From contig DUQX01000096.1 in the NCBI GenBank assembly GCA_012837615.1, forward strand, positions 1 through 51,504: DNA of 51,504 nt, read 5' to 3'. The position numbers and the translations under genes are program-made. The DNA is from Bacillota bacterium (lineage in GTDB: Bacteria > Bacillota > Dethiobacteria > DTU022 > UBA8154). Shown piece after piece: positions 4,796-51,377 of this stretch. The notes under the pieces are model-generated. The model was given only the letters and a program-made list of their open reading frames with translations. It ran no database searches and had not been told where the DNA came from. Each line of letters begins with the position of its first letter. The first letter of the stretch is position 1.

Positions 4796-5542
4796 TTAGC
4801 ATCTTACCGCCATCCTCTTTAATACTTTTTGATAAGCCATTTTTTCAAATTTACTGTTAAGTAGTTTTAACCTGGTCCCAGGGTATTTGTTATTGACAGC
4901 CTTTTCTAGAATATAATCGGCAAGCCACGGGTGTTTAGGAAGAAGAGGGCCATGCAGGTATGTCCCCAAAACGTTTTTATAGATTGCTCCCTCTTTTCCG
5001 TCCTGCCCATTATTCCCATAACCCTTTAATACTTTGCCAAAGGGTAGTGCCCTTGCTCCCAAAAAAGTATTTCCTGCATGGTTCTCAAAACCAACAATAG
5101 TTTTATTCATATTCCCAAGGCGGACCCTGAGAGCTATATGGCCGACCGCTCTCCTTTTGCTTGCAATCGTCCAGATATCAAGCAGGCCAATCCCCGGTAT
5201 TCTATCTCCTTCAGCCGTAAGGTAATATTTCCCTAAAAGCTGAAAGCCACTGCAAATGGCCAAAATAGGGATTTTATTTTCGGCGCAGTAATGAATCTCC
5301 GGACTTTTTTGCTGCAGATCTTTGCAGATAGCCATTCTTTCTTCTAAACCCTGGCCGCCTCCAATCACGATACAATCGGCGCCAGTTATTCTTCGATTAT
5401 CCCCGGCGGAAACATCCATAACCTCTACTGAAAACCCTCTCCATCTGGCCCGCATTACCAGGGCTATCATATTCCCCCTGTCCCCATAGGAGTTCATTAA
5501 ATCGGGATATAAATGCGCAAAACGCAGCTTCAATCCTTGCAA
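4796..5542 (-). CDS. gatD: Lipid II isoglutaminyl synthase, glutaminase subunit GatD
   Basis: Class I GATase motif IPILAICSGFQLLG; MNSYGDRGNMIAL start region; adjacent to murT. Confidence 0.85.
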   Translation of the reverse strand: MQGLKLRFAHLYPDLMNSYGDRGNMIALVMRARWRGFSVEVMDVSAGDNRRITGADCIVIGGGQGLEERMAICKDLQQKSPEIHYCAENKIPILAICSGFQLLGKYYLTAEGDRIPGIGLLDIWTIASKRRAVGHIALRVRLGNMNKTIVGFENHAGNTFLGARALPFGKVLKGYGNNGQDGKEGAIYKNVLGTYLHGPLLPKHPWLADYILEKAVNNKYPGTRLKLLNSKFEKMAYQKVLKRMAVRC

Positions 5543-5545
5543 GCC

Positions 5546-6943
5546 TTATTCCTCCCAAAACTTTTTCCCATAACCCATCTTATTTATTATTTTCCTTAAT
5601 TCCAGCATCGCTGTATACGTAAGCAGTATCGGCAATTTACCTCCATCCGGCGTGTTGCTCAAACTCTCCCTAAAAATAATATTCAGATCATCCTCGTATT
5701 TGATTTTCCTGGTATCAATGCCGGCATATTTCAATCTTAGCGACATCTCTTCTCCTCTGGTTCCGGAACAAAATATATTTTTAATTTTATTATCTGGATG
5801 GGCCAGCATCTCAAAATCCACATCCCAAAGCCAGGAAACATCTGTACCATCGGCATATTTGTCATTGACAGCCAGCATCAGCGTTATTTCGCCATCCTCT
5901 TCAACAATGGTCCGTAAGACTTCGTTGGCGCCCACGGGATTTTTAATTAAAGCAAGCTCAACCATCTTATTTTCGATAGCAAATGTCTCCATGCGACCAA
6001 AACAAGCTGTAAATTGTCGCAGGCTTGCTTTGATCACCTCTTCTCTTACACCCAAAATCAGAGCGCAGGAGATAGCTGCAAGAGCATTATAAATGTTGTA
6101 AAACCCCCTTGCTTTTAATGAAAATTGAAAAACGCCGGTAGGCGTTTTAATGGCAACCGCCGCGCTTTGAGCAGGTTTTTTAAAATGGGAAACGATGGAA
6201 TACTGTGGCGAAGGACGCCTTATTCCGCAACCCGGACATCGATAAATACCCAGGTGAGCATAATGAATATGCGCATAATCATACTTTTTTCCGCAACGAT
6301 AGCATGTTTTAATATCTGTTTGATCCGCAGTTATTGATGCTCCCTTTAATCTGTCTATACCATAATAAATTGTCCGAACATTTTTTTTAATGCTTGACAC
6401 CAAAGGGTCATCAGCATTTAACAGAAGAAAGCCATCCCCATCAATCTTATTAAGCCCCTGTGCTATTATTTTTAAGATATGTTTCAGTTCTCCGAAACGG
6501 TCTAGCTGATCTGGAAATAAGTTAGTAACTATGGCTGCTTTTACCCTTAGGCGGGAGGCAACAGCCGGCATGGAGGCTTCATCTACCTCAATAACACCCA
6601 GATCGGCATTTATTTTTCCTGACCACGTACTTTCTGCAATAAAAGAGGTTGTAACGCCGGAAATAAGGTTGGCCCCGCTGCGGTTATGGATTATTTTTTT
6701 TCCGGCCTGAGATAAAATTTTCGCCAGCAAGTACGCCGTTGTCGTTTTACCATTTGTACCGGTTATAAGAATACACCCTTCTTTAAGCTGAGAAGCCAGT
6801 ATAGAGAGAATGTCAGGAGACAAGCTGGCAGCAAGTCTGCCAGGTAAAGTGGAGCCCCCAAAGTTAGAATACCTGCTAAAATTTATACACATCTTCCCCA
6901 GGCCAAGGCTGGGCAGCACTTTTAGACGGTTACCCGGAAACAA
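5546..6943 (-). CDS. murT: Lipid II isoglutaminyl synthase, Mur-ligase subunit MurT
   Basis: ITGTNGKTTTAYLLA P-loop; internal zinc ribbon CYRCGKKYDY...YRCPGCG typical of MurT. Confidence 0.88.
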   Translation of the reverse strand: MFPGNRLKVLPSLGLGKMCINFSRYSNFGGSTLPGRLAASLSPDILSILASQLKEGCILITGTNGKTTTAYLLAKILSQAGKKIIHNRSGANLISGVTTSFIAESTWSGKINADLGVIEVDEASMPAVASRLRVKAAIVTNLFPDQLDRFGELKHILKIIAQGLNKIDGDGFLLLNADDPLVSSIKKNVRTIYYGIDRLKGASITADQTDIKTCYRCGKKYDYAHIHYAHLGIYRCPGCGIRRPSPQYSIVSHFKKPAQSAAVAIKTPTGVFQFSLKARGFYNIYNALAAISCALILGVREEVIKASLRQFTACFGRMETFAIENKMVELALIKNPVGANEVLRTIVEEDGEITLMLAVNDKYADGTDVSWLWDVDFEMLAHPDNKIKNIFCSGTRGEEMSLRLKYAGIDTRKIKYEDDLNIIFRESLSNTPDGGKLPILLTYTAMLELRKIINKMGYGKKFWEE

Positions 6944-7102
6944 AATTATCCCCCCGTTTTTACTTTATAATATGGTTTGGGAGGATGAAAAGTGAGAGCG
7001 CCTTATTTGCCATACTGCTTGCCACCTTTTTCCGGTATTAAGGGGAGGGGCAAGCGACAATGCTTTGTCCCCTTACTAAATAATCTTACTGAATAATAAA
7101 GA

Positions 7103-8542
7103 TCATTTTAACCCTTTTAACCTCTCCTGTGCTCTAAGAAAAAGAACCCGAACAAACTGCCCAATTATTATTAGATATACAAAACAAGAACGCAATCCCG
7201 CAATAATTCTTTTACCCATTAAAACAATATTATGATAACCTTCTTTCCAGACAATTCCCCCCCGCCCCAGGTGAAGTTCTAACTGTTTTTTAAACCGTTC
7301 CCAGGCCCCGGGGTTGTTGAGGAAATAGAAACCTGCCAGCGCTGTTGCCACTAATAAAATAATTACAGCTGCAGTTCCCCCCACACTGCCCCCAAGGGCA
7401 CCTGGCTTATCAGCCCTGGGGAATGCTTCATTCTCACCCTCCACGGGAATACCATAAAAATACTTTGCCACTACATCGGCAAAAAGAGTTATACCTTTTT
7501 CAGCGGCGTCCCGGCTATTTAGGTGAGCTCCTACCTCCAACAAGAGATTAAGCGGCGTTAAATCCTGATTATAATCGCCCCACCCCATAAAAACACCTTT
7601 TATTAGGCCGGGATAGATGTCGTCAGCCAGGCCCTTCATATCATAGGCAAAACGTCTTGTAACCTCCAAAGAGGGGCTCTCCCGACCTACTACAAACTGG
7701 ATTTTTGTTACCCATTCCTTTCCGATCTTAACCGCATAAACATCCATAGGAGCTGCATCACGGTGTATATCAAAAATGGCATCCGGGTTTCGACGTAAAA
7801 GATTCAAGACAGTATTCCGGGAACGGCGATAAGCGCCCTCATCATGAGGCAAGTGCATATTATCGGAATGTATAGCATTAATATTTTTTTCTTCCAGGGC
7901 CCGCTGCAGCGCCGCTCCAACCTGATGGATCCCTCCATGCCCGTACACGCTTTCGGTGCCGTCGGTGGGCACATAAGACTCGTCGTTATGCGTATGATAT
8001 ATGGCAATAAGCTTTTTCTTTGGCGGTTTTTTGTTTATTCCTTTCTTCAGGGGTGAATTAAGGGCTTGTAAAATTGGGTTTGGGGAATATTTTTCCTGAT
8101 CTAATAAGCTGGAAGCGGAACCATGCAAGTCAGGTCTTTTTATTTTCTCTGTCCGCAGATACCTGGCTATAGCCGTATAATCCCTAACGTGGCAGACTTC
8201 ATAAAGGCGGTTTTTTTCATCAAGGTAAAGATCTCCGGGCCTGATACGTCGCCCTGTTTTGGTAATAAGCTCGCCTTCTTCATCCACAAGGCAAAAGTAT
8301 TTCCCCCTGGCAATTTCTTCGCTTTCAAGTTCATCAAAATATTTAACTAATAACTGCTCCGTACCGCTTTCTCTTTCCTTAGTGCTGCCACTTTCGAGTA
8401 CAGAATCCAGCGTTTTTTCTTTCGTTAGCACATATACAGCTGAATTTTCTTCTAAAATATCCGCTTTTCCAACTCCAGCAAGGCAAAGAATAATTAAAAA
8501 GATAAAAAGAAGAAACAGGCGTTTAGGCAACTTAGTGCACAT
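7103..8542 (-). CDS. spoIIP: Stage II sporulation protein P
   Basis: IYHTHNDESYVPTDG, DIHRDAAPMD, LLLEVGAHLNS motifs of the SpoIIP family. Confidence 0.85.
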   Translation of the reverse strand: MCTKLPKRLFLLFIFLIILCLAGVGKADILEENSAVYVLTKEKTLDSVLESGSTKERESGTEQLLVKYFDELESEEIARGKYFCLVDEEGELITKTGRRIRPGDLYLDEKNRLYEVCHVRDYTAIARYLRTEKIKRPDLHGSASSLLDQEKYSPNPILQALNSPLKKGINKKPPKKKLIAIYHTHNDESYVPTDGTESVYGHGGIHQVGAALQRALEEKNINAIHSDNMHLPHDEGAYRRSRNTVLNLLRRNPDAIFDIHRDAAPMDVYAVKIGKEWVTKIQFVVGRESPSLEVTRRFAYDMKGLADDIYPGLIKGVFMGWGDYNQDLTPLNLLLEVGAHLNSRDAAEKGITLFADVVAKYFYGIPVEGENEAFPRADKPGALGGSVGGTAAVIILLVATALAGFYFLNNPGAWERFKKQLELHLGRGGIVWKEGYHNIVLMGKRIIAGLRSCFVYLIIIGQFVRVLFLRAQERLKGLK

Positions 8543-16082: not shown

Positions 16083-17435
16083 TTAGGATGATATTCCCAA
16101 TTCTTTTTCCACAACCGCTGCCAGGCTCCGGGAAATTTCCTGAAGAAGTGTACTTTTTTCCCCTTCGATCATGATCCTGATCAGCGGTTCGGTCCCCGAG
16201 GGCCTGATTAAAACCCTTCCCCTTTCCCCCAATTTTTCTTCAGCCAGCTTGATCGACTCTGAAATACGTTCATTGTCTTCCCAGCCTTCCTTGTTTCTCA
16301 CGCGGCAGTTTACCAGCAGCTGGGGCAGGGGACAAATAATAGAGGAAAGACGGGACAGGGGCTCACCCTTTTCGACCATAACCTTTAATAGCTGTAAAGA
16401 TGTGAAAAGCCCGTCACCCGTAGTCATCGGGCCATCAAAAATAATATGCCCGGACTGCTCGCCGCCCAGAGCACACCCTCTACGGAGCATCTCCTCCAGG
16501 ACATAGCGGTCCCCTACCTGCGTGCGAATAACTTCAAAGCCATGTTCTTCCCCTGCTATTTCCAGGCCGCCGTTGCTCATCACCGTAGCCACAATTTTAT
16601 TACCCGGAAGCATGTCCTTTTCAGCCAGGTAGGAAGCACAGATAGCCATAATTGCATCGCCATCTGCCAGTTCGCCGTTTTCATCTACAGCGATCAGGCG
16701 GTCCCCATCACCGTCAAAGGCAAGACCGAGATGGGCTCCTTGCTCACAAACAGTCCTTTGTAACGATTCCGGGCCGGTTGAACCACAATTTACATTAATA
16801 TTCTTCCCGTTCGGACTGTTATGTAGGGGAATTACTTCAGCACCCAGTTCCCTGTAAACCTCAGGAGCAATTTTCCAGAGCGAGCCGTTGGCGCAGTCCA
16901 GAACAATTTTCAGCCCCTTTAAAACGGGAGCTTCCTTTTTTAAAAATGTAAGGTAATGCTGCAAAGCCTTCTCTGACCTGAATGACTGGCCGACTTTCGC
17001 CCCTATCGGGCGGGGGAGATCATCCGTATCCCTATAAAAAAGTTCTTCCGCTTTTTTTTCCAGTTCTAAATCCATCTTAAAACCTTTTGCATCAAAAAAC
17101 TTAATACCGTTATCCTCGGCCGGATTGTGAGAAGCAGAAATCATAATCCCTCCGGCGGCTTTTAAAGCAACAGTTAAATAGGCTACCACCGGCGTTGATA
17201 CAACCCCCAAAAGGCGGACCTGCACACCAACGGAGGTAATACCGGCAACCAGAGCTCCCTCCAGCATGGTCCCGGAAATACGGGTATCCCTTCCCAACCA
17301 AAAAAAAGGCTGTCCAGAACGGCTCTTGTTTCCCAGTAAAAAAGCAACGATACGTCCCATTCTAAACGCCAACTCCGGGGTCAGCTCTGAATTAGCCACA
17401 CCCCGGATTCCATCTGTCCCGAATAATTTTTTCAT
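16083..17435 (-). CDS. glmM: Phosphoglucosamine mutase
   Basis: KLFGTDGIRGVAN, ISASHNPAEDNGIK, DGDGDR, RPSGTEPLIRIM. Confidence 0.95.
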   Translation of the reverse strand: MKKLFGTDGIRGVANSELTPELAFRMGRIVAFLLGNKSRSGQPFFWLGRDTRISGTMLEGALVAGITSVGVQVRLLGVVSTPVVAYLTVALKAAGGIMISASHNPAEDNGIKFFDAKGFKMDLELEKKAEELFYRDTDDLPRPIGAKVGQSFRSEKALQHYLTFLKKEAPVLKGLKIVLDCANGSLWKIAPEVYRELGAEVIPLHNSPNGKNINVNCGSTGPESLQRTVCEQGAHLGLAFDGDGDRLIAVDENGELADGDAIMAICASYLAEKDMLPGNKIVATVMSNGGLEIAGEEHGFEVIRTQVGDRYVLEEMLRRGCALGGEQSGHIIFDGPMTTGDGLFTSLQLLKVMVEKGEPLSRLSSIICPLPQLLVNCRVRNKEGWEDNERISESIKLAEEKLGERGRVLIRPSGTEPLIRIMIEGEKSTLLQEISRSLAAVVEKELGISS

Positions 17436-17469: not shown

Positions 17470-18399
17470 CTACTCAACAGGAAAAATCCTGACCTTTGCA
17501 AACCTGTGCTGAACAGGCTTTACCTCTTCAGGGAAAATCAAGGGCGCCTCTACCGTAGACGGCAGTCCAACGTCTTCCAACTGGATCTCCGCCGTCTTTA
17601 TAGTATCAATCTCTTTTAGGAGATACCCGGGCCCTTCTATAGTTACCTGGGAGGGCTCCAGTAACATAATCTCAACTTCATCCTGCACGTTATCCGCTAA
17701 AACGACCTCTACGGGAACATCTTTTTGGGGAAAAGTAAGGCTGACCGTTACCTCGACTTCCTCAGGGGAAACCGTTACCCCCTGGACAGGATTTCTCTTG
17801 CTATCCACCGGTTCAAGCCTGATACTCTTACTAAGAGTTCCTTCGGCGCCGCTTACGTCAATTATGAAAATAACGCTTTGCACAGAATCAACCTTCTCGC
17901 GTGTTCCCCTGACAAAAACTTCTTCAGGAGAAAAACTAATCTCTTCAACAATCTTTCCTCCTGTAGGCTCTCCTTCCAGGCTGCATTCCACGTTCATCTG
18001 TTTCGTGATCAAATTTTCAAGGATTATCGTTGCCTTTGATGGCTCAATACTGACTACGCTCAAACCCTGAGGCGCTTCAGCATTAATGCGGATTTCGTGA
18101 CGGCCCTCTTTTTTCCCGCTCAGGTCAACAAATGCCTCCAGGTGAGCGGGCGTTAACCCGTCAAAAGCCTGGGGAACCCCCTGCAGCGATAGGGTAATAC
18201 TATGATCCATATTCACTATTACCAGGTCCTCCCCCAGGTTACGATAAGACAAAGGAATATTGCCAAAAGAGCGCCGGGCTTCAAGACCAAGAGCTTCCTG
18301 GCTATCTCCGGCTACAAAAAGCCAGAGGATCAGAGCAAGAAAAAAGGATATGACCTTAGCAAAATTTCGGCTCTCCGTTATTTTACTCATTATTTTCAT
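17470..18399 (-). CDS. cdaR: YbbR-domain protein CdaR
   Basis: N-terminal TM then repeated YbbR-type domains; between cdaA and glmM. Confidence 0.85.
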   Translation of the reverse strand: MKIMSKITESRNFAKVISFFLALILWLFVAGDSQEALGLEARRSFGNIPLSYRNLGEDLVIVNMDHSITLSLQGVPQAFDGLTPAHLEAFVDLSGKKEGRHEIRINAEAPQGLSVVSIEPSKATIILENLITKQMNVECSLEGEPTGGKIVEEISFSPEEVFVRGTREKVDSVQSVIFIIDVSGAEGTLSKSIRLEPVDSKRNPVQGVTVSPEEVEVTVSLTFPQKDVPVEVVLADNVQDEVEIMLLEPSQVTIEGPGYLLKEIDTIKTAEIQLEDVGLPSTVEAPLIFPEEVKPVQHRFAKVRIFPVE

Positions 18400-19234
18400 C
18401 GTCTATATTAATCCTCCAGGGGAAAATAGAAACAATGCCTTTCTTTCTCTCCGCTGTTGAGAAAAAGTTCATCAATGCACTGCGTAGGGTCTTCTCATCA
18501 AGATAACGCGTTAATTTTCCGTTATTAGCAAGAGAGATAACACCTGTTTCTTCGGAGATAATAATAACCACTGCATCTGACACTTCCGTAATTCCAAGTC
18601 CGGCACGGTGTCTGGTTCCCAACTCTTTGCTGAGGTTGGGATTCTCCGTAAAAGGAAGAAAGCAACCCGCAGCAGCAATATTCCGGCCCCTGATAATCAC
18701 AGCGCCGTCATGCAGCGGGCTGCGGGGCATAAAAATATTGATCAAGAGCTCGGCCGTCGCAATCCCATCGATCATTATGCCCGTTTCAATAATGTCTTTC
18801 AAACCGGTTTCCCGCTCTAAAACAATGAGGGCACCGATTTTTTTCTTAACCATAACAGGAATTGCCTTGAGGAGTTCATTTAATACCTCCCGGAAATCCT
18901 CATCCTCCTGTTCATAAAGAGATCTTTGAAAGATCTTACCCCTGCCGAGCTGCTCCAGAGCCCTTCTCAGCTCCGGCTGAAAAATAATCGGGATAGCCAC
19001 AAGGCTCATCGTCATCAAGCTCTGCAGCAGCCAGTTTACGGTCCTCAACCCGAGCAGGTTGCTAACTAGGAGGGAAACCAGGAGAACAATGAGGCCTTTA
19101 ACCAGTTGTTCCGCCCGGGTGCCCTTGATCAAAAGGATAATGCGGTAGAAAATATACGTTATAATTGCAACATCTAGAACGTCGCGCCATTCCGGGCGGA
19201 ACTGAACAATACCGGTTAAAATTTTTTCCCACAT
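18383..19234 (-). CDS. cdaA: Diadenylate cyclase CdaA
   Basis: SPLHDGAVIIRG and LGTRHRAGLGITE DAC motifs; N-terminal TMs. Confidence 0.95.
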   Translation of the reverse strand: MWEKILTGIVQFRPEWRDVLDVAIITYIFYRIILLIKGTRAEQLVKGLIVLLVSLLVSNLLGLRTVNWLLQSLMTMSLVAIPIIFQPELRRALEQLGRGKIFQRSLYEQEDEDFREVLNELLKAIPVMVKKKIGALIVLERETGLKDIIETGIMIDGIATAELLINIFMPRSPLHDGAVIIRGRNIAAAGCFLPFTENPNLSKELGTRHRAGLGITEVSDAVVIIISEETGVISLANNGKLTRYLDEKTLRSALMNFFSTAERKKGIVSIFPWRINIDDENNE

Positions 19235-19516
19235 TTACGGCTTCCAACTCCCTGCCTGATTTACCTTTTTTATTCTACCCCCCGCAGGCTAAATCCTTTT
19301 TGGTAATTCTTTTTTTTCCGCTTACGGACTTTCAAAATATTTCTCAACAAGAGCCATATATTGGAAGGAATGGGGTTTGAAAACTTATTCCCCGGGAAAT
19401 GTCTTAACGCCGGCCGTTGCCAAACATCGTTTCTCAAAAAAAAATAACCTGAACTGCAAGGGCTGCAGATGGAAAGCAGGCTATATCCCTGAACCGCTGC
19501 GAGCTTCCATAAATGT

Positions 19517-20536
19517 TTAAACCTTCTCTCCATAAATATGCCCTGTTAACATGATCGTATGACCACATTTTTTGCAGCTTTTATCCTTAAGGCCGATATT
19601 TTTCAAGCGATAACCGTTCCGGCTAATCAACAATTGGCCACAATCAGGGCAATATGTTGAGCTCCGCTTATCATCGGCAACATTGCCCAGATAAACATAG
19701 GAGAGCTTCTCCCTGGCGGTTTCCCAGGCGTTTTCCATGATCTCCAGGGGGGTAGGAGGCATATCCAGCCGGTAGCCAGGAAAATAACGGCTGAAATGCA
19801 CAGGTATTTCCTTGTCGAGGGATGCCACCCAGTCAATAAAATTTCTTATTTCCTCGGGGCTGTCGTTAAGAGAGGTAACAATAAGATAAGTGAGTTCCAC
19901 ATGGCATTTTGAAAGGGCCAGTTCCACTGTCTTAAGAACCTGTTTATAGCCCTTTCCGTGGCAGTAGCGCCGGTAAAAACTATCCTGAAAAGCCTTAACA
20001 TCGATATTCATTCCGTGAATAAAAGGTAATAGCTCCTTCAAAGGCTCTTCATTAATAAAGCCGTTGGTAACCAGAACATTTTTATAGCCTTCCCCGGCAA
20101 CCATCTCCGCCGTATCACGGACAAATTCATACCAGACGGTCGGTTCGTTGTAGGTATAAGCGATACCAAGCTGTTCCCTGGCCGGTCTATCTCCGAGAAT
20201 GTCGAGGAGATCTTTGGCAGATATCTCTTTCAGCTCCTTCGATGCCCTGCCCCTGGCCAGAGCCCAGTTCTGGCAAAAAGAACAGTGCAGATTGCAACCG
20301 TTAGAACCCAGAGATAGAATATCATATCCCGGGTAAAAGTGATAAAGAGGCTTTTTTTCGACGGGATCAAAAGCAAGAGCACCGCAAAGGCCGTAATTCA
20401 TCGTTAACAGCCTGCCACCTTCGACCCTACGGACACCGCAAATCCCTTCCTGCTCCTCCTTCAGATTACATTCCTGGGGACAAAGCCTGCATATAACGGA
20501 ATCTTTCTCCCTGCTATAGAAACGCGCTTCTTGCAT
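19517..20536 (-). CDS. amrS: AmmeMemoRadiSam system radical SAM enzyme
   Basis: CX3CX2C in NLHCSFCQNW; CRLCPQECNL; C-terminal zinc ribbon YCPDCG...CKKCGH. Confidence 0.92.
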   Translation of the reverse strand: MQEARFYSREKDSVICRLCPQECNLKEEQEGICGVRRVEGGRLLTMNYGLCGALAFDPVEKKPLYHFYPGYDILSLGSNGCNLHCSFCQNWALARGRASKELKEISAKDLLDILGDRPAREQLGIAYTYNEPTVWYEFVRDTAEMVAGEGYKNVLVTNGFINEEPLKELLPFIHGMNIDVKAFQDSFYRRYCHGKGYKQVLKTVELALSKCHVELTYLIVTSLNDSPEEIRNFIDWVASLDKEIPVHFSRYFPGYRLDMPPTPLEIMENAWETAREKLSYVYLGNVADDKRSSTYCPDCGQLLISRNGYRLKNIGLKDKSCKKCGHTIMLTGHIYGEKV

Positions 20537-20577
20537 TTTGCTTCCCTTCTACAATATTTACATTCATCCTAACAAAA

Positions 20578-21111
20578 TTAGTTTCCCTCTTTTTCGTAAT
20601 AACGTTTTACTTCAAAGCGGTAAATCTCTACCAGCTCATCCGGAAAGATACCCGCTTTTTGTTTTGCAATAGATAATTGCTCTTCTACTGTAGTAATCCC
20701 TTCCAGATCCGGTAGCAGCAAGCCTCTTCGGCCTCCGCGGCGCACAATTACGCCAAAACGCTGAGGGTCAAGTTCATTAATATCCTCAACTTTTTCGGGT
20801 TCGGATAGGACATCTACCGAGTAGGTAAGCTCCGGGAGCTCGTCCTCGGAAACAGGCGGAAATCTCGGATCTTTCAAACCGGCGCTTACCGCATTAGCAG
20901 CAATCTCCCCCGCCAGAGTCCTCTTTGTCGGGCTTATCGTCCCGATACAGCCCCGGAGTTCACCTCTTTTCTTGATAGAAACAAAAGCGGCCCCCGGCTT
21001 TTGAAGATCCGGGGATAGGTCCGGAGGAATAGAAGAAAGGCGCTTTCCCCTTACATGGTTCTCCAGGGCTTTACGGGCAATTTCCGTATAAACGCTACCT
21101 TTTTCTTGCAC
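20578..21111 (-). CDS. amrA: AmmeMemoRadiSam system protein A (AMMECR1 domain)
   Basis: KRGELRGCIGTISP hallmark; GTG start overlapping the amrB TAG. Confidence 0.93.
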   Translation of the reverse strand: MQEKGSVYTEIARKALENHVRGKRLSSIPPDLSPDLQKPGAAFVSIKKRGELRGCIGTISPTKRTLAGEIAANAVSAGLKDPRFPPVSEDELPELTYSVDVLSEPEKVEDINELDPQRFGVIVRRGGRRGLLLPDLEGITTVEEQLSIAKQKAGIFPDELVEIYRFEVKRYYEKEGN

Positions 21112-21956
21112 TAAACATCCTCCTCTATTACAGGTGTTAGCAAAGCCACTAAATAACCGACACCAAACGGACCTTCATAAGACAATATCTGCGGCGCAAT
21201 CTTACAATCGGAAAGAATGCCCAGTAAAATAATTATGGAACGAATTCCACACTCTCCGGCAACGGAAACCAAATTCTCATCCATTTCCAGCAGTTTTGTT
21301 GTATTGTACTCCTTTACGTTTTCCACTATTTGCCGGTCGTATTCCTTCCCGAGAGGATTGTAGCCTGCAGGGGCATCCCTGGTAAGACGGTGAGAGAGAT
21401 CTCCGCTGGCGATCACCGCCACCCTGCGCCCCAAAGCCTCCACCGCTTTTTTTATCGCTTCTCCAAAACGATAAAGATCTTTAAAGGGAAGCATGGCAAA
21501 AGTAATGGCGACAATACAGCCGTCCTTGAAACCCGCTTTTTCCAAATAATAAAGGGGCACCATGATGCCATGATCCAGGGCAGCCATATCCCCCCTCCCC
21601 CGTATCCAGTTATTATCTTTTTTTAGCAATTTAACACCAATACTTACCTTTCTGCTCTCCTCAGCAATAGCCTTAACAAGTGGAATATCGTTTTTTACGT
21701 TGAAGTTAACACCGGGAACCCCAAAATCGCCGAAGTTCCCCTGAAGTTTTTCATCGGCCAGAATGGCCGGAGTATCTCTGAAGACAGGGCCGTGCGGTGT
21801 GATAAAGATGACCGTTTCAGGGGAAAGGGTAACAACTTGATCGCTTAGTTTTACTAACGCATCCGCTGTACTACGTACCCTATCTATCTCCCGACCGCCG
21901 ATCTCCGGGATAATCAGCGGCGGGTGAGGGCTAATACCTGCAACTAAAACGCCCAA
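21111..21956 (-). CDS. amrB: AmmeMemoRadiSam system protein B (Memo-like)
   Basis: GISPHPPLIIPEIGG, ITPHGPVF, ASGDLSHRLT; TTG start inferred. Confidence 0.9.
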   Translation of the reverse strand: MGVLVAGISPHPPLIIPEIGGREIDRVRSTADALVKLSDQVVTLSPETVIFITPHGPVFRDTPAILADEKLQGNFGDFGVPGVNFNVKNDIPLVKAIAEESRKVSIGVKLLKKDNNWIRGRGDMAALDHGIMVPLYYLEKAGFKDGCIVAITFAMLPFKDLYRFGEAIKKAVEALGRRVAVIASGDLSHRLTRDAPAGYNPLGKEYDRQIVENVKEYNTTKLLEMDENLVSVAGECGIRSIIILLGILSDCKIAPQILSYEGPFGVGYLVALLTPVIEEDV

Positions 21957-22230
21957 TGTAAAACACCCCCCCCTTTCCAGTATTCCATCTCCTGCATCTT
22001 TTATGAACTTCCTTATATCGGGAAATATTTCTTCACACCGGTATATATTCTCCAAAGTATTCGGAAAACCCTACATCTATAACAAAATAATCTATAAATA
22101 TTCTATTCGAAGCTGCCTGAACAGAGGCCTGCCGCCACCCTAGCAGCACAGAGGGGAAAAAGCACCGGGCAGCAAAAAAGCACGGCTGATTCTCTTTAGT
22201 AATCTTCTGTTGAAAATATTTTTCAAATAA

Positions 22231-22761
22231 TTATTCTGAACCCTGGAGGTAGACGATTTCCGCTCGTAGTTTCCGGTTTTTAATACTGAGGAGGGCGCAG
22301 GAAGGCGGATAGCCCCGGCGGGGGTCTCCCACCGAACCGGGATTAAGCAGGAGGATCTCATTGCGCTGCTCGAGAAGAGGGACATGGCTGTGTCCGAAGA
22401 TCAGCCCCTGGATCTCGCTGCCGCTAAATTTTTGCAGCAGCAGGTCGGAAGCACCCCGCGGCGCTCCAAAACCATGGATCAAACCCAGCGACACCTCGCC
22501 CAGATGAACAATTTTTTCCAGGCCCAGCTTCATTTTCAAATAAAGCGGGTCCATATTTCCCGCTACAGCCTCAACCGGAGCAAGGGCTCTTAATTCATCC
22601 AGGACACTTTCCTCTTCGATGTCACCGGCATGTAATATAAGGTCAACGCCATCCAGTAAACCGAACAGGCTGGAGGGTAAAAAAGGAGCACGGGCAGGAA
22701 TATGTGTATCCGAAACAACGCCAATTAAACCATTTTTTAGAGTATATTTAACCTCTCGCAT
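22231..22761 (-). CDS. YfcE/MJ0936-type metallophosphoesterase
   Basis: GVVSDTHIPAR, HAGDIEEE, GNMD, GHSHVP, NPGSVGDPR. Confidence 0.92.
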   Translation of the reverse strand: MREVKYTLKNGLIGVVSDTHIPARAPFLPSSLFGLLDGVDLILHAGDIEEESVLDELRALAPVEAVAGNMDPLYLKMKLGLEKIVHLGEVSLGLIHGFGAPRGASDLLLQKFSGSEIQGLIFGHSHVPLLEQRNEILLLNPGSVGDPRRGYPPSCALLSIKNRKLRAEIVYLQGSE

Positions 22762-24372: not shown

Positions 24373-24467
24373 AAAAAAAATCCTCCTTACAAACCTTGGT
24401 TTATGTATATAAATAACATACATATTATTTATTATAACATAAAATATATTCAAAGGAGATGAAATCG

Positions 24468-25031
24468 TTGGGAAAAATGAAATCAGCCCTGGAAATAGCG
24501 CTGGAAAAAGCAAAAAAAATCAGCCTAGAGGAGAAGAAGACACCTGATGATATCGAACAAAAAAAATTTATGAAAGCTGCCGCCTTTCTGGGAAATTCAT
24601 TTCTGCAGGGAAAAGTAGAGAAAAAAGAAGTCAGGGAGAGTATTCTGCGTTATCCGGAGAAATACCGGAAAGCAGCTATTGCTTCGTTTATTGAACAGAT
24701 TACAGAAGAAATGGATTTAGAAAATACCCCGAAAATACTGCAGGCAATTACTTATATCGAGGAGGACGAATATATTAGAAATGCCTGCCGGGAAACGGAA
24801 AAATTATATCATCAATACAGGAAAATGATGAAAGAAAAGCTTTCACAGCTCCAGGAGAGCACTTCAAGATTTCTGCGCAAAAGGTTGGAAAGGGAAGGAA
24901 TTAAAGGATCCGCCGTTGCCAATTTCAACATAAAAAAAAGGAAGGAATGGAAGGAAGCCTCAGCACAGATTCAAAAAGAGTACAGGGAAATTTTAGAAAG
25001 ATTTCGATCCTCCCTTTTCAAACAAGAATAA
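24468..25031 (+). CDS. Hypothetical charged helical protein
   Basis: AAAGGAG Shine-Dalgarno with TTG start 9 nt after the SD-embedded ATG; no recognised motif. Confidence 0.6.
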   Translation: MGKMKSALEIALEKAKKISLEEKKTPDDIEQKKFMKAAAFLGNSFLQGKVEKKEVRESILRYPEKYRKAAIASFIEQITEEMDLENTPKILQAITYIEEDEYIRNACRETEKLYHQYRKMMKEKLSQLQESTSRFLRKRLEREGIKGSAVANFNIKKRKEWKEASAQIQKEYREILERFRSSLFKQE

Positions 25032-29626: not shown

Positions 29627-30154
29627 CTAGTGGAGTTTCCCGCGACCCCAGTCATAAAAGCGAACATTGTGTTCCTCATTATCATATTTCCAGGTAATAT
29701 CAACATAGTAATTAATAAGAAAGTCTTCCTTTATCTTATCCTCAAAAACTCCGATCGGCACCCCATCGCTCCAGTTGGAGTTCTCTATGCTAAGGCTGTA
29801 CTCCAGTTTTTCCCCCTTTTCAACACTCCCGTAATCAATAACAAAGGAATCATCTATCAGCCCGCAGGTAAGGGGGCTCCTGATAACGATCTGCACATCC
29901 TGGGCGGATTTTTCCCCTAAATACTGTATAACGCTATCCGCTTCTATCAATACCTTATCGCCGCTAAACTCAATCTGCGCACTTCTCTCTTCAATACCCC
30001 AGACCCCTTCCCAATACTTATCGGGACGTAAATCCGCGGTTACTTCAGTAGCATCAACAACTGTACAACCGGTCGAAAAAATAAAAAGTGATAATACCAG
30101 CAGAAGCAGCAAAGGTTTTTGCATGTTTTTTTGCATCTTTTTATCCCCTTTCAT
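29627..30154 (-). CDS. Hypothetical lipoprotein
   Basis: Signal peptide with lipobox LFIFSTGC; no family recognised. Confidence 0.65.
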   Translation of the reverse strand: MKGDKKMQKNMQKPLLLLLVLSLFIFSTGCTVVDATEVTADLRPDKYWEGVWGIEERSAQIEFSGDKVLIEADSVIQYLGEKSAQDVQIVIRSPLTCGLIDDSFVIDYGSVEKGEKLEYSLSIENSNWSDGVPIGVFEDKIKEDFLINYYVDITWKYDNEEHNVRFYDWGRGKLH

Positions 30155-31250: not shown

Positions 31251-31643
31251 TTAACGCTTAGAAAATTGCGGTGCACGGCGAGCTTTTTTCAAGCCATATT
31301 TTTTTCGCTCTTTCATTCTGGGATCCCTTGTGAGGAACCCTTCCCTTTTTAAAACAGGGCGGTATTCATCATCTGCTTCTAAAAGGGCTCTAGCAATACC
31401 ATGCCTGAGAGCACCGGCTTGCCCCGTAAAACCACCGCCTTCTACCTTGGCCAGAACATCAAATTTCTGTAGGGTTCCCGTCCTTTCCAGGGGACGACGA
31501 ACCTCTGCTTTTAATGTATCCATTCCAAAATATGCATCAAGATCTTTATTATTAATAATTATCTTACCCCCGCCGGGGACTAAACGCACTCTTGCGACAG
31601 ACTTTTTTCTGCGTCCTGTACCATAATATTGAACCTGGGTCAT
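31251..31643 (-). CDS. rpsI: 30S ribosomal protein S9
   Basis: [19 protein letters not shown]...[17 protein letters not shown]. Confidence 0.97.
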
Positions 31644-31725
31644 TCTTTACACCCCCTTTAAACTGAAAGTATAGGCATATTAAGTTGGTCTCGGATTTAC
31701 TTCCTAGAAAACCAAAAAGCGCTCC

Positions 31726-32178
31726 CTAACGCTCTGCCACCCTCTTGGGCACAAAAACCCATTCAGCAGGTTGCTGTGCCTGATGCCGGTGATCGGCACC
31801 GCGATAAACTTTAAGCTTTTTCAACATGGCCCTCCCCAAACGGTTTGCAGGAAGCATTCTTTTCACCGCCAGATAAAAAAGCCTTTCCGGGTTTTTGGCG
31901 AGAAAATGATCGTAGCGTATTTTTTTAATACCGCCCGGGTAACCTGAATGCCTGTAATAATATTTTCTCTGGGCCTTTTTTCCTGTCAACAAAATCTTGT
32001 CCACGTTAATAACTATGACATGGTCACCTACATCCAGATGGGGAGTATAAATGGTTTTATGCTTGCCTCTTAAAATTCTGGCTACTTCACTGGCCAACCT
32101 TCCCAGGGGTAAACCTGCAGCATCTATAACATACCACTTGCGTTCAATATCCTTTTCTGTTGCCATATAAGTGCGCAT
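31726..32178 (-). CDS. rplM: 50S ribosomal protein L13
   Basis: [27 protein letters not shown]. Confidence 0.97.
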
Positions 32179-51178: not shown

Positions 51179-51222
51179 GCTTTTCCCCCTTTTCGTCTGA
51201 TTACTTTTTGCAGACTGCTCCG

Positions 51223-51247
51223 TAAAAATTACCCGCCTCCAAGGCGG
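51223..51247 (-). terminator. Terminator/attenuator-like hairpin between tuf and rpsJ
   Basis: Minus strand CCGCCT-TGG-AGGCGG followed by GTAATTTTTA. Confidence 0.5.
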
Positions 51248-51377
51248 CAACCTCTTACTTCATCACTGTTCAGCTAATCTAAAATATTGATATAAAATAT
51301 AACACTTACCCAACATCATTTTAACTATTGCCTTTATGCCGTAACAACGCTTTAAACCGGATTCAGCTTTAAATAAG

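Follow-up and report, generated by a model that had tools for sequence, protein, structure and literature searches.

An AmmeMemoRadiSam cassette beside the c-di-AMP synthase cluster: an apparently old, class-wide gene arrangement with probably separate transcription units

The AmmeMemoRadiSam cassette analyzed here lies directly upstream of cdaA, the gene for the membrane diadenylate cyclase, and comparison of gene order indicates that this adjacency is an old arrangement across a bacterial class and not a local accident. The window is the whole analyzed stretch of 51,504 nucleotides of contig DUQX01000096.1 from a Bacillota bacterium (assembly GCA_012837615.1). While the cassette is already known as a kind, the present analysis adds the depth of its linkage to cdaA, a lost symporter gene, a promoter-like element favouring separate transcription, and the LigB-type identity of AmrB. 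The reading that we favour, and consider reasonably probable, is that a known cassette sits in an old near-ribosomal block of cell-wall and sporulation genes, that amr and cda form separate units within it, and that the cassette proteins act together as a single enzyme complex. The DNA and the predicted proteins show the gene order, the residues of the iron site, the promoter-like element and the scar of the symporter gene, and a biochemical link of the cassette to c-di-AMP is possible. Bacterial relatives of MEMO1 and AMMECR1 commonly travel with a radical SAM enzyme, and to our knowledge the human proteins have no settled molecular function. A literature search, mostly without subscription papers, found none joining AMMECR1 with bacterial c-di-AMP synthesis. 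A class in which the cassette almost always stands beside cdaA-cdaR-glmM is a natural experiment on a role in c-di-AMP or cell-wall supply, and it includes mapped exceptions (G467, G469, and G470) as well as a third player, an alanine symporter.

All genes of the block are located on the minus strand of the window. The cassette consists of amrS (19517..20536, 339 aa), which encodes the radical SAM enzyme and scored 299 bits against TIGR04337 (cut-off 220), amrA (20578..21111, 177 aa, GTG start), which encodes the AMMECR1 protein with 149 bits against TIGR04335 (cut-off 99) and 164 bits against PF01871, and amrB (21111..21956, 281 aa, TTG start), a member of the class III extradiol-dioxygenase/Memo superfamily with 33.8 bits against TIGR04336 (cut-off 26). 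The three genes are adjacent and co-oriented and all exceed the curated NCBIfam cut-offs, so the earlier naming of the cassette as AmmeMemoRadiSam was right. The motifs given in the preliminary description (SPHPPLIIPEIGG, LRGCIGT, CNLHCSFC, and the C-terminal CPDCG...CKKCG) were found at their places, as was the 1-nt overlap (TAGTG), in which the GTG start of amrA and the stop of amrB have one base in common. The gene order described there was likewise recovered, with a yfcE-type phosphoesterase gene upstream (22231..22761, 176 aa; TIGR00040 108.9 bits, cut-off 56) and cdaA-cdaR-glmM downstream. The latter are three adjoining same-strand genes of the expected families: cdaA (18383..19234, 283 aa; TIGR00159 266 bits, cut-off 189), cdaR, encoding the YbbR-like regulator of CdaA (17470..18399; PF07949 76 bits), and glmM, encoding phosphoglucosamine mutase (16083..17435; TIGR01455 554 bits). 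Genes, order and strand thus match the cdaA-cdaR-glmM(-glmS) cluster of Bacillota, and glmS with its ribozyme follows in locus L123. The arrangement differs from that cluster in the preceding amrBA-amrS, in the AGCS symporter gene of relatives and in the sigma-H-type promoter-like element that it carries. Among the loci read, yfcE was matched as a neighbour solely in those of the window's own family, f1. Two further open reading frames of the window, 24459-25031 (plus strand, 190 aa) and 29627-30154 (minus strand, 175 aa), had no Pfam match.

Across the window's class, the cassette was found directly upstream of cdaA and co-oriented with it in 77 genomes, with three clear exceptions; these counts are non-independent events, with shared ancestry accounting for most of the signal in the class. 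The 77 comprise 56 genomes of the window's order, 2 with partial genes and 19 from other families of the class. Within the order, both the amrS and the cdaA family were searched for in 71 genomes, and 56 of these had amrS directly upstream of cdaA and on its strand, at profile-edge distances of 183-540 bp (38 genomes) or 1.5-1.8 kb (18 genomes). The remaining order genomes showed contig borders or no hit; L182 and L042 are the partial linked cases, and L181 fits the pattern. The rest of the class contributed 18 further linked genomes, to which L189 was added as the nineteenth. In the exceptions (G467, G469, and G470), cwlD is followed by agcS and cdaA, with no amr among them. In family f81 and in G468, the amrS-cdaA distance is only about 60-115 bp.

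In a sample of the phylum, amrA and cdaA were both located in 120 genomes, most of which keep the two apart. Fifteen genomes had them within about 3 kb and co-oriented, 8 of these (6 families) lying outside the window's class, and G417 and G362 add two families, giving at least eight other linked families. The preliminary description had proposed a family survey for recurrent linkage and had named confinement to close relatives as evidence against a functional tie. The linkage proved recurrent, and such confinement is ruled out by the 77 class genomes and by the eight or more further families elsewhere in the phylum. In Atribacterota and Chloroflexota, 68 of 80 named cdaA loci had no amr HMM match, the available flank often being limited, while amrS lies about 3.6 kb upstream of cdaA in the Anaerolineae locus L118. 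In families f56 and f14 (L172, L173, and L170), amrS and cdaA are separated by other genes. Those of f56 code for an amino-acid kinase, for a sigma factor accompanied by a zf-HC2 (anti-sigma-like) protein, and for a TPR protein; f14 likewise has an amino-acid kinase, here together with a carbamoyltransferase and a TldD/PmbA pair. The amrS-cdaA gap of L124 holds a co-oriented reading frame of 138 aa that by appearance resembles a universal-stress-type domain.

The gap between amrS and cdaA in the window (19235..19516, minus strand) measures 282 bp and contains a run of T. In relatives with a long gap, this space is filled by one gene, agcS, encoding a Na+:alanine symporter (PF01235). A 26-nt piece of the window's gap (19386-19411), the strongest remnant, shares 88% identity with the agcS genes that two family members have at the homologous position, and none of 500 shuffles scored as well. 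As the remnant lies in a collinear chain with the end of amrS and the upstream region of cdaA, the gap is read as the scar of an agcS gene kept in relatives. On a tree of 58 CdaA+AmrS rows, agcS presence requires about 10 state changes, at least 9 of them on well-supported branches, while amr and cda stay together; only loci with the two genes on a common strand were chosen as rows, and the frequency at which the linkage breaks can therefore not be read from this tree. The preliminary description had reported a 280-bp gap with a hairpin and a T-run, of which gap and T-run stand and the hairpin does not rise above chance. No terminator-like site was listed in the gap (regional count 12 against 11.2 in shuffles), its fold was not better than that of shuffles (z = +0.8), no Rfam family was matched, and the corresponding gaps of relatives held no tRNA genes. 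A terminator or leader RNA in the gap was rejected on the chance-level site count and folding and the empty Rfam search.

Reading of the intergenic sequences upstream of cdaA revealed a recurring AGGTATTT...GCGAAT element. It was written as the pattern RNAGGNWWW, 10-13 nt, RNNGAAT, which is close to the sigma-H consensus of Bacillus subtilis, and occurs in the window at 19272..19299 (minus strand) as AAAGGATTT-N12-GTAGAAT. The pattern was present in 39 of 141 cdaA upstream regions compared with 1.2 in Markov-shuffled sequences; the count is exploratory, since the pattern was drawn up after viewing some of the tested sequences, and other genes were compared by the same pattern. Upstream regions of neighbouring genes matched in 0 of 16 cases for agcS, 1 of 58 for amrS, 0 of 56 for cdaR and 1 of 46 for glmM. 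Upstream of amrB, a possible but weak element, GTAGGGTTT-N12-GGAGAAT, lies at 22047..22074 (minus strand), and matches there occurred in 5 of 52 loci, 4 of them from the window's family. The sigH gene is present in the window's genome and in 48 of 71 genomes of the order.

Although no terminator exceeds chance, the conserved promoter-like element upstream of cdaA argues against a single amr-cda operon, and amr and cda are most likely transcribed separately. A separate cdaA transcript, which the preliminary description had also named as speaking against a tie, gains sequence support from this element. The gene would have its own promoter, probably read by the stationary-phase and sporulation factor sigma-H, and amr and cda would share an inherited place and possibly timing; perhaps they are under shared stationary-phase control. 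Against separate units, the short spacing in f81 and G468 would allow read-through or a common operon there, and the promoter element is a consensus match whose pattern 35 of the 62 linked cdaA loci show and 27 lack.

The block belongs to a wider neighbourhood downstream of ribosomal protein genes. Its fullest order, rplM-rpsI-chrAB-cwlD-amrBA-amrS-agcS-cdaA-cdaR-glmM-glmS, was found in L123, and in L123, L126, L166, L168, and L180 rplM-rpsI precedes the block directly or at a short distance. In the window, rpsI and rplM (31251..32178, minus strand; PF00380 and PF00572) mark the start of the conserved neighbourhood, and the ribosomal protein cluster spans about 31-51 kb. At the start of this cluster, an S10-Clostridia ribosomal leader (RF03136, 41.8 bits) was matched at 51193-51271 (minus strand). 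The separation of amrA and cdaA in 21 single-contig genomes, mostly tens of kilobases, was much smaller than expected for random placement, and in 13 of these genomes it was within 8% of half the genome. Together with the nearby rplM-rpsI, this closeness places the block in a slowly rearranging stretch by the ribosomal protein cluster, and adjacency alone is therefore no proof of a c-di-AMP link. The cwlD gene lies upstream of amr also where cdaA is far away (L153, L155, L156, and L159). In the genus mate L200 it stands between yfcE and amrB, and the comparison with this locus points to its loss from the window, where only a weak N-terminal match and no clear cwlD pseudogene was found between these two genes. 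Deletion of cwlD and agcS in the window's lineage would have brought amrS next to cdaA. In six Atribacterota loci (L058, L061, L062, L063, L064, and L071), rplM-rpsI occurs close upstream of cdaA, and amr is absent.

AmrB was described earlier as Memo-like, which holds for the superfamily fold and not for Memo as the best family, as the protein scored 166 bits against LigB (PF02900) and 28.8 bits against Memo (PF01875); the AmmeMemoSam_B cut-off was also exceeded only modestly. In a profile of 26 relatives, H10, H54, and E234 of AmrB (numbered without the start residue) align with H13, H62, and E251 of 2-aminophenol dioxygenase, which are its iron ligands (PMC11081632). Among 72 AmrB sequences, H10 and H54 are conserved in all and E234 in 70, and Cys235 beside the ligand Glu234 is invariant. 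Human MEMO1 (PDB 3BCZ, 7KQ8) has the same superfamily fold (Foldseek E ~3e-8, target-normalised TM ~0.55) and also a Cys-Gly pair near the third ligand. However, its metal site is H49/H81/C244 (PMC11081632), an H/H/C set, whereas AmrB aligns as H/H/E with the cysteine adjoining the glutamate. The top sequence and fold match of AmrB was TK2203 (PDB 5HEE; E 1e-27, target-normalised TM 0.84), with class III extradiol dioxygenases (8IQ8, 3VSH) among the best matches of both kinds, all much closer than MEMO1. The AlphaFold model of a fused AmrB-AmrA relative (mean pLDDT 83.7, pTM 0.65) likewise fits TK2203 and the dioxygenases better in Foldseek. From the 2-His-1-Glu site and this fold, AmrB is assigned to the class III extradiol-dioxygenase (LigB-type) proteins rather than the MEMO1-like ones. 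In contrast to AmrB, TK2203 lacks the ECG motif at the corresponding place, and AmrB differs from TK2203 and the dioxygenases in being accompanied by AMMECR1 and a radical SAM enzyme. A 2019 superfamily paper by Burroughs and colleagues reportedly linked Memo to nucleotide-base and isoprenoid modification.

With its LigB fold, complete iron site and Foldseek matches to DHPAO and aminophenol dioxygenase, AmrB could be taken for an O2-using, ring-cleaving dioxygenase in a cassette that degrades an aromatic compound. We regard this as very improbable, since AmrB always comes with an O2-sensitive radical SAM enzyme, genes of aromatic catabolism were not observed next to the cassette, the ligand glutamate is flanked by the additional invariant cysteine, and the hosts look anaerobic, judging by Syntrophomonadaceae-labelled and digester-type MAG titles.

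In AmrS, the radical SAM cysteines C81, C85, and C88 (CX3CX2C) are present in 94 of 94 aligned sequences and the further N-terminal cysteines C16, C19, C23, and C33 in 93-94 of 94, while the C-terminal zinc ribbon occurs in 58 of 62 cdaA-linked AmrS. Pyruvate formate-lyase activase provides the closest solved structures, and the CX3CX2C motif is common to both, but AmrS differs from this glycyl-radical-enzyme activase in the extra N-terminal cysteines and, usually, the zinc ribbon. AmrS was not placed among the glycyl-radical-enzyme activases, as no glycyl radical enzyme gene was found among the neighbours examined by family search, a subset of the window's genes. In AmrA, LRGCIGT is invariant or nearly so (74 sequences). 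The amrA and amrB genes are fused in about half of the related loci (47 fused and 45 separate, duplicates included), and such fusion speaks more strongly for a partnership than translational coupling does; the fusion supports an A-B partnership only, and joint action of all three proteins is predicted. Compared with the AmmeMemoRadiSam system as defined by TIGR04335/04336/04337, the window has all components adjacent and co-oriented, but component B belongs to the LigB type by both Pfam and fold, fusion of B and A is frequent in relatives, and the cassette is joined to the c-di-AMP synthase cluster class-wide. The cassette would most likely form one enzyme complex, in which AmrB would bind iron in the extradiol-dioxygenase site, AmrA, often fused to it, would contribute the invariant LRGCIG cysteine, and AmrS, as an activase relative, would generate a 5'-deoxyadenosyl radical, probably used on AmrBA or its bound substrate. 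At a pTM of 0.65, the fused model leaves the AmrB-AmrA interface undefined, which weighs against the one-complex part.

The favoured reading, an old near-ribosomal block with separate amr and cda units, has to be weighed against stronger and weaker interpretations of the linkage. Repeated agcS loss with amr kept beside cdaA could mean selection for the pair, and the cassette might set the supply of c-di-AMP or of peptidoglycan precursors, by making or modifying a cofactor, a metabolite (amino-acid or cell-wall) or the CdaA/CdaR proteins themselves, so that selection keeps amr and cda together. The class-wide adjacency and its recurrence in at least eight further families, always in the same orientation, would fit, as would its persistence while agcS came and went about ten times, and cwlD, agcS, glmM, and glmS share a cell-wall and alanine theme. 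However, cdaA has its own promoter-like element, most phylum genomes with both genes separate them, cwlD remains with amr where cdaA is distant, and we know of no shared biochemistry of amr and cda, which leaves this reading unlikely. A narrower version sees the AmmeMemoRadiSam enzyme and CdaA as a conserved module under sigma-H control, in which a metabolite or modification from the iron/radical enzyme would tune c-di-AMP and the supply of cell-wall precursors as cells enter stationary phase or sporulation. It is quite unlikely in our judgement, but if true it would be the first physiological role for Memo/AMMECR1-type proteins.

At the other end, pure inertia of gene order would hold both sets in a slowly rearranging post-ribosomal stretch, with no common regulation or function. 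In agreement with this, rplM-rpsI directly precedes either the block or just cdaA, in Atribacterota too, and the single-contig genomes show closer-than-random separations of mostly tens of kilobases. This account appears rather unlikely, however, as the class varies in yfcE, chrAB, cwlD, and agcS and yet keeps amr beside cda, and in the window's family amrB as well as cdaA has possible sigma-H-type sites.

AmrS-like proteins also occur apart from the cassette. The window's genome encodes a second one (G000:C131:2128-3096; L002, L130) with 170.6 bits, below the TIGR04337 cut-off of 220, and amrA and amrB matches were absent in the 10 kb read around it. High-scoring AmrS paralogs without amrA or amrB were found in further members of the order (L127 at 4995-7693, L128, L139, and L142), where they adjoin a second, oppositely oriented radical SAM gene.
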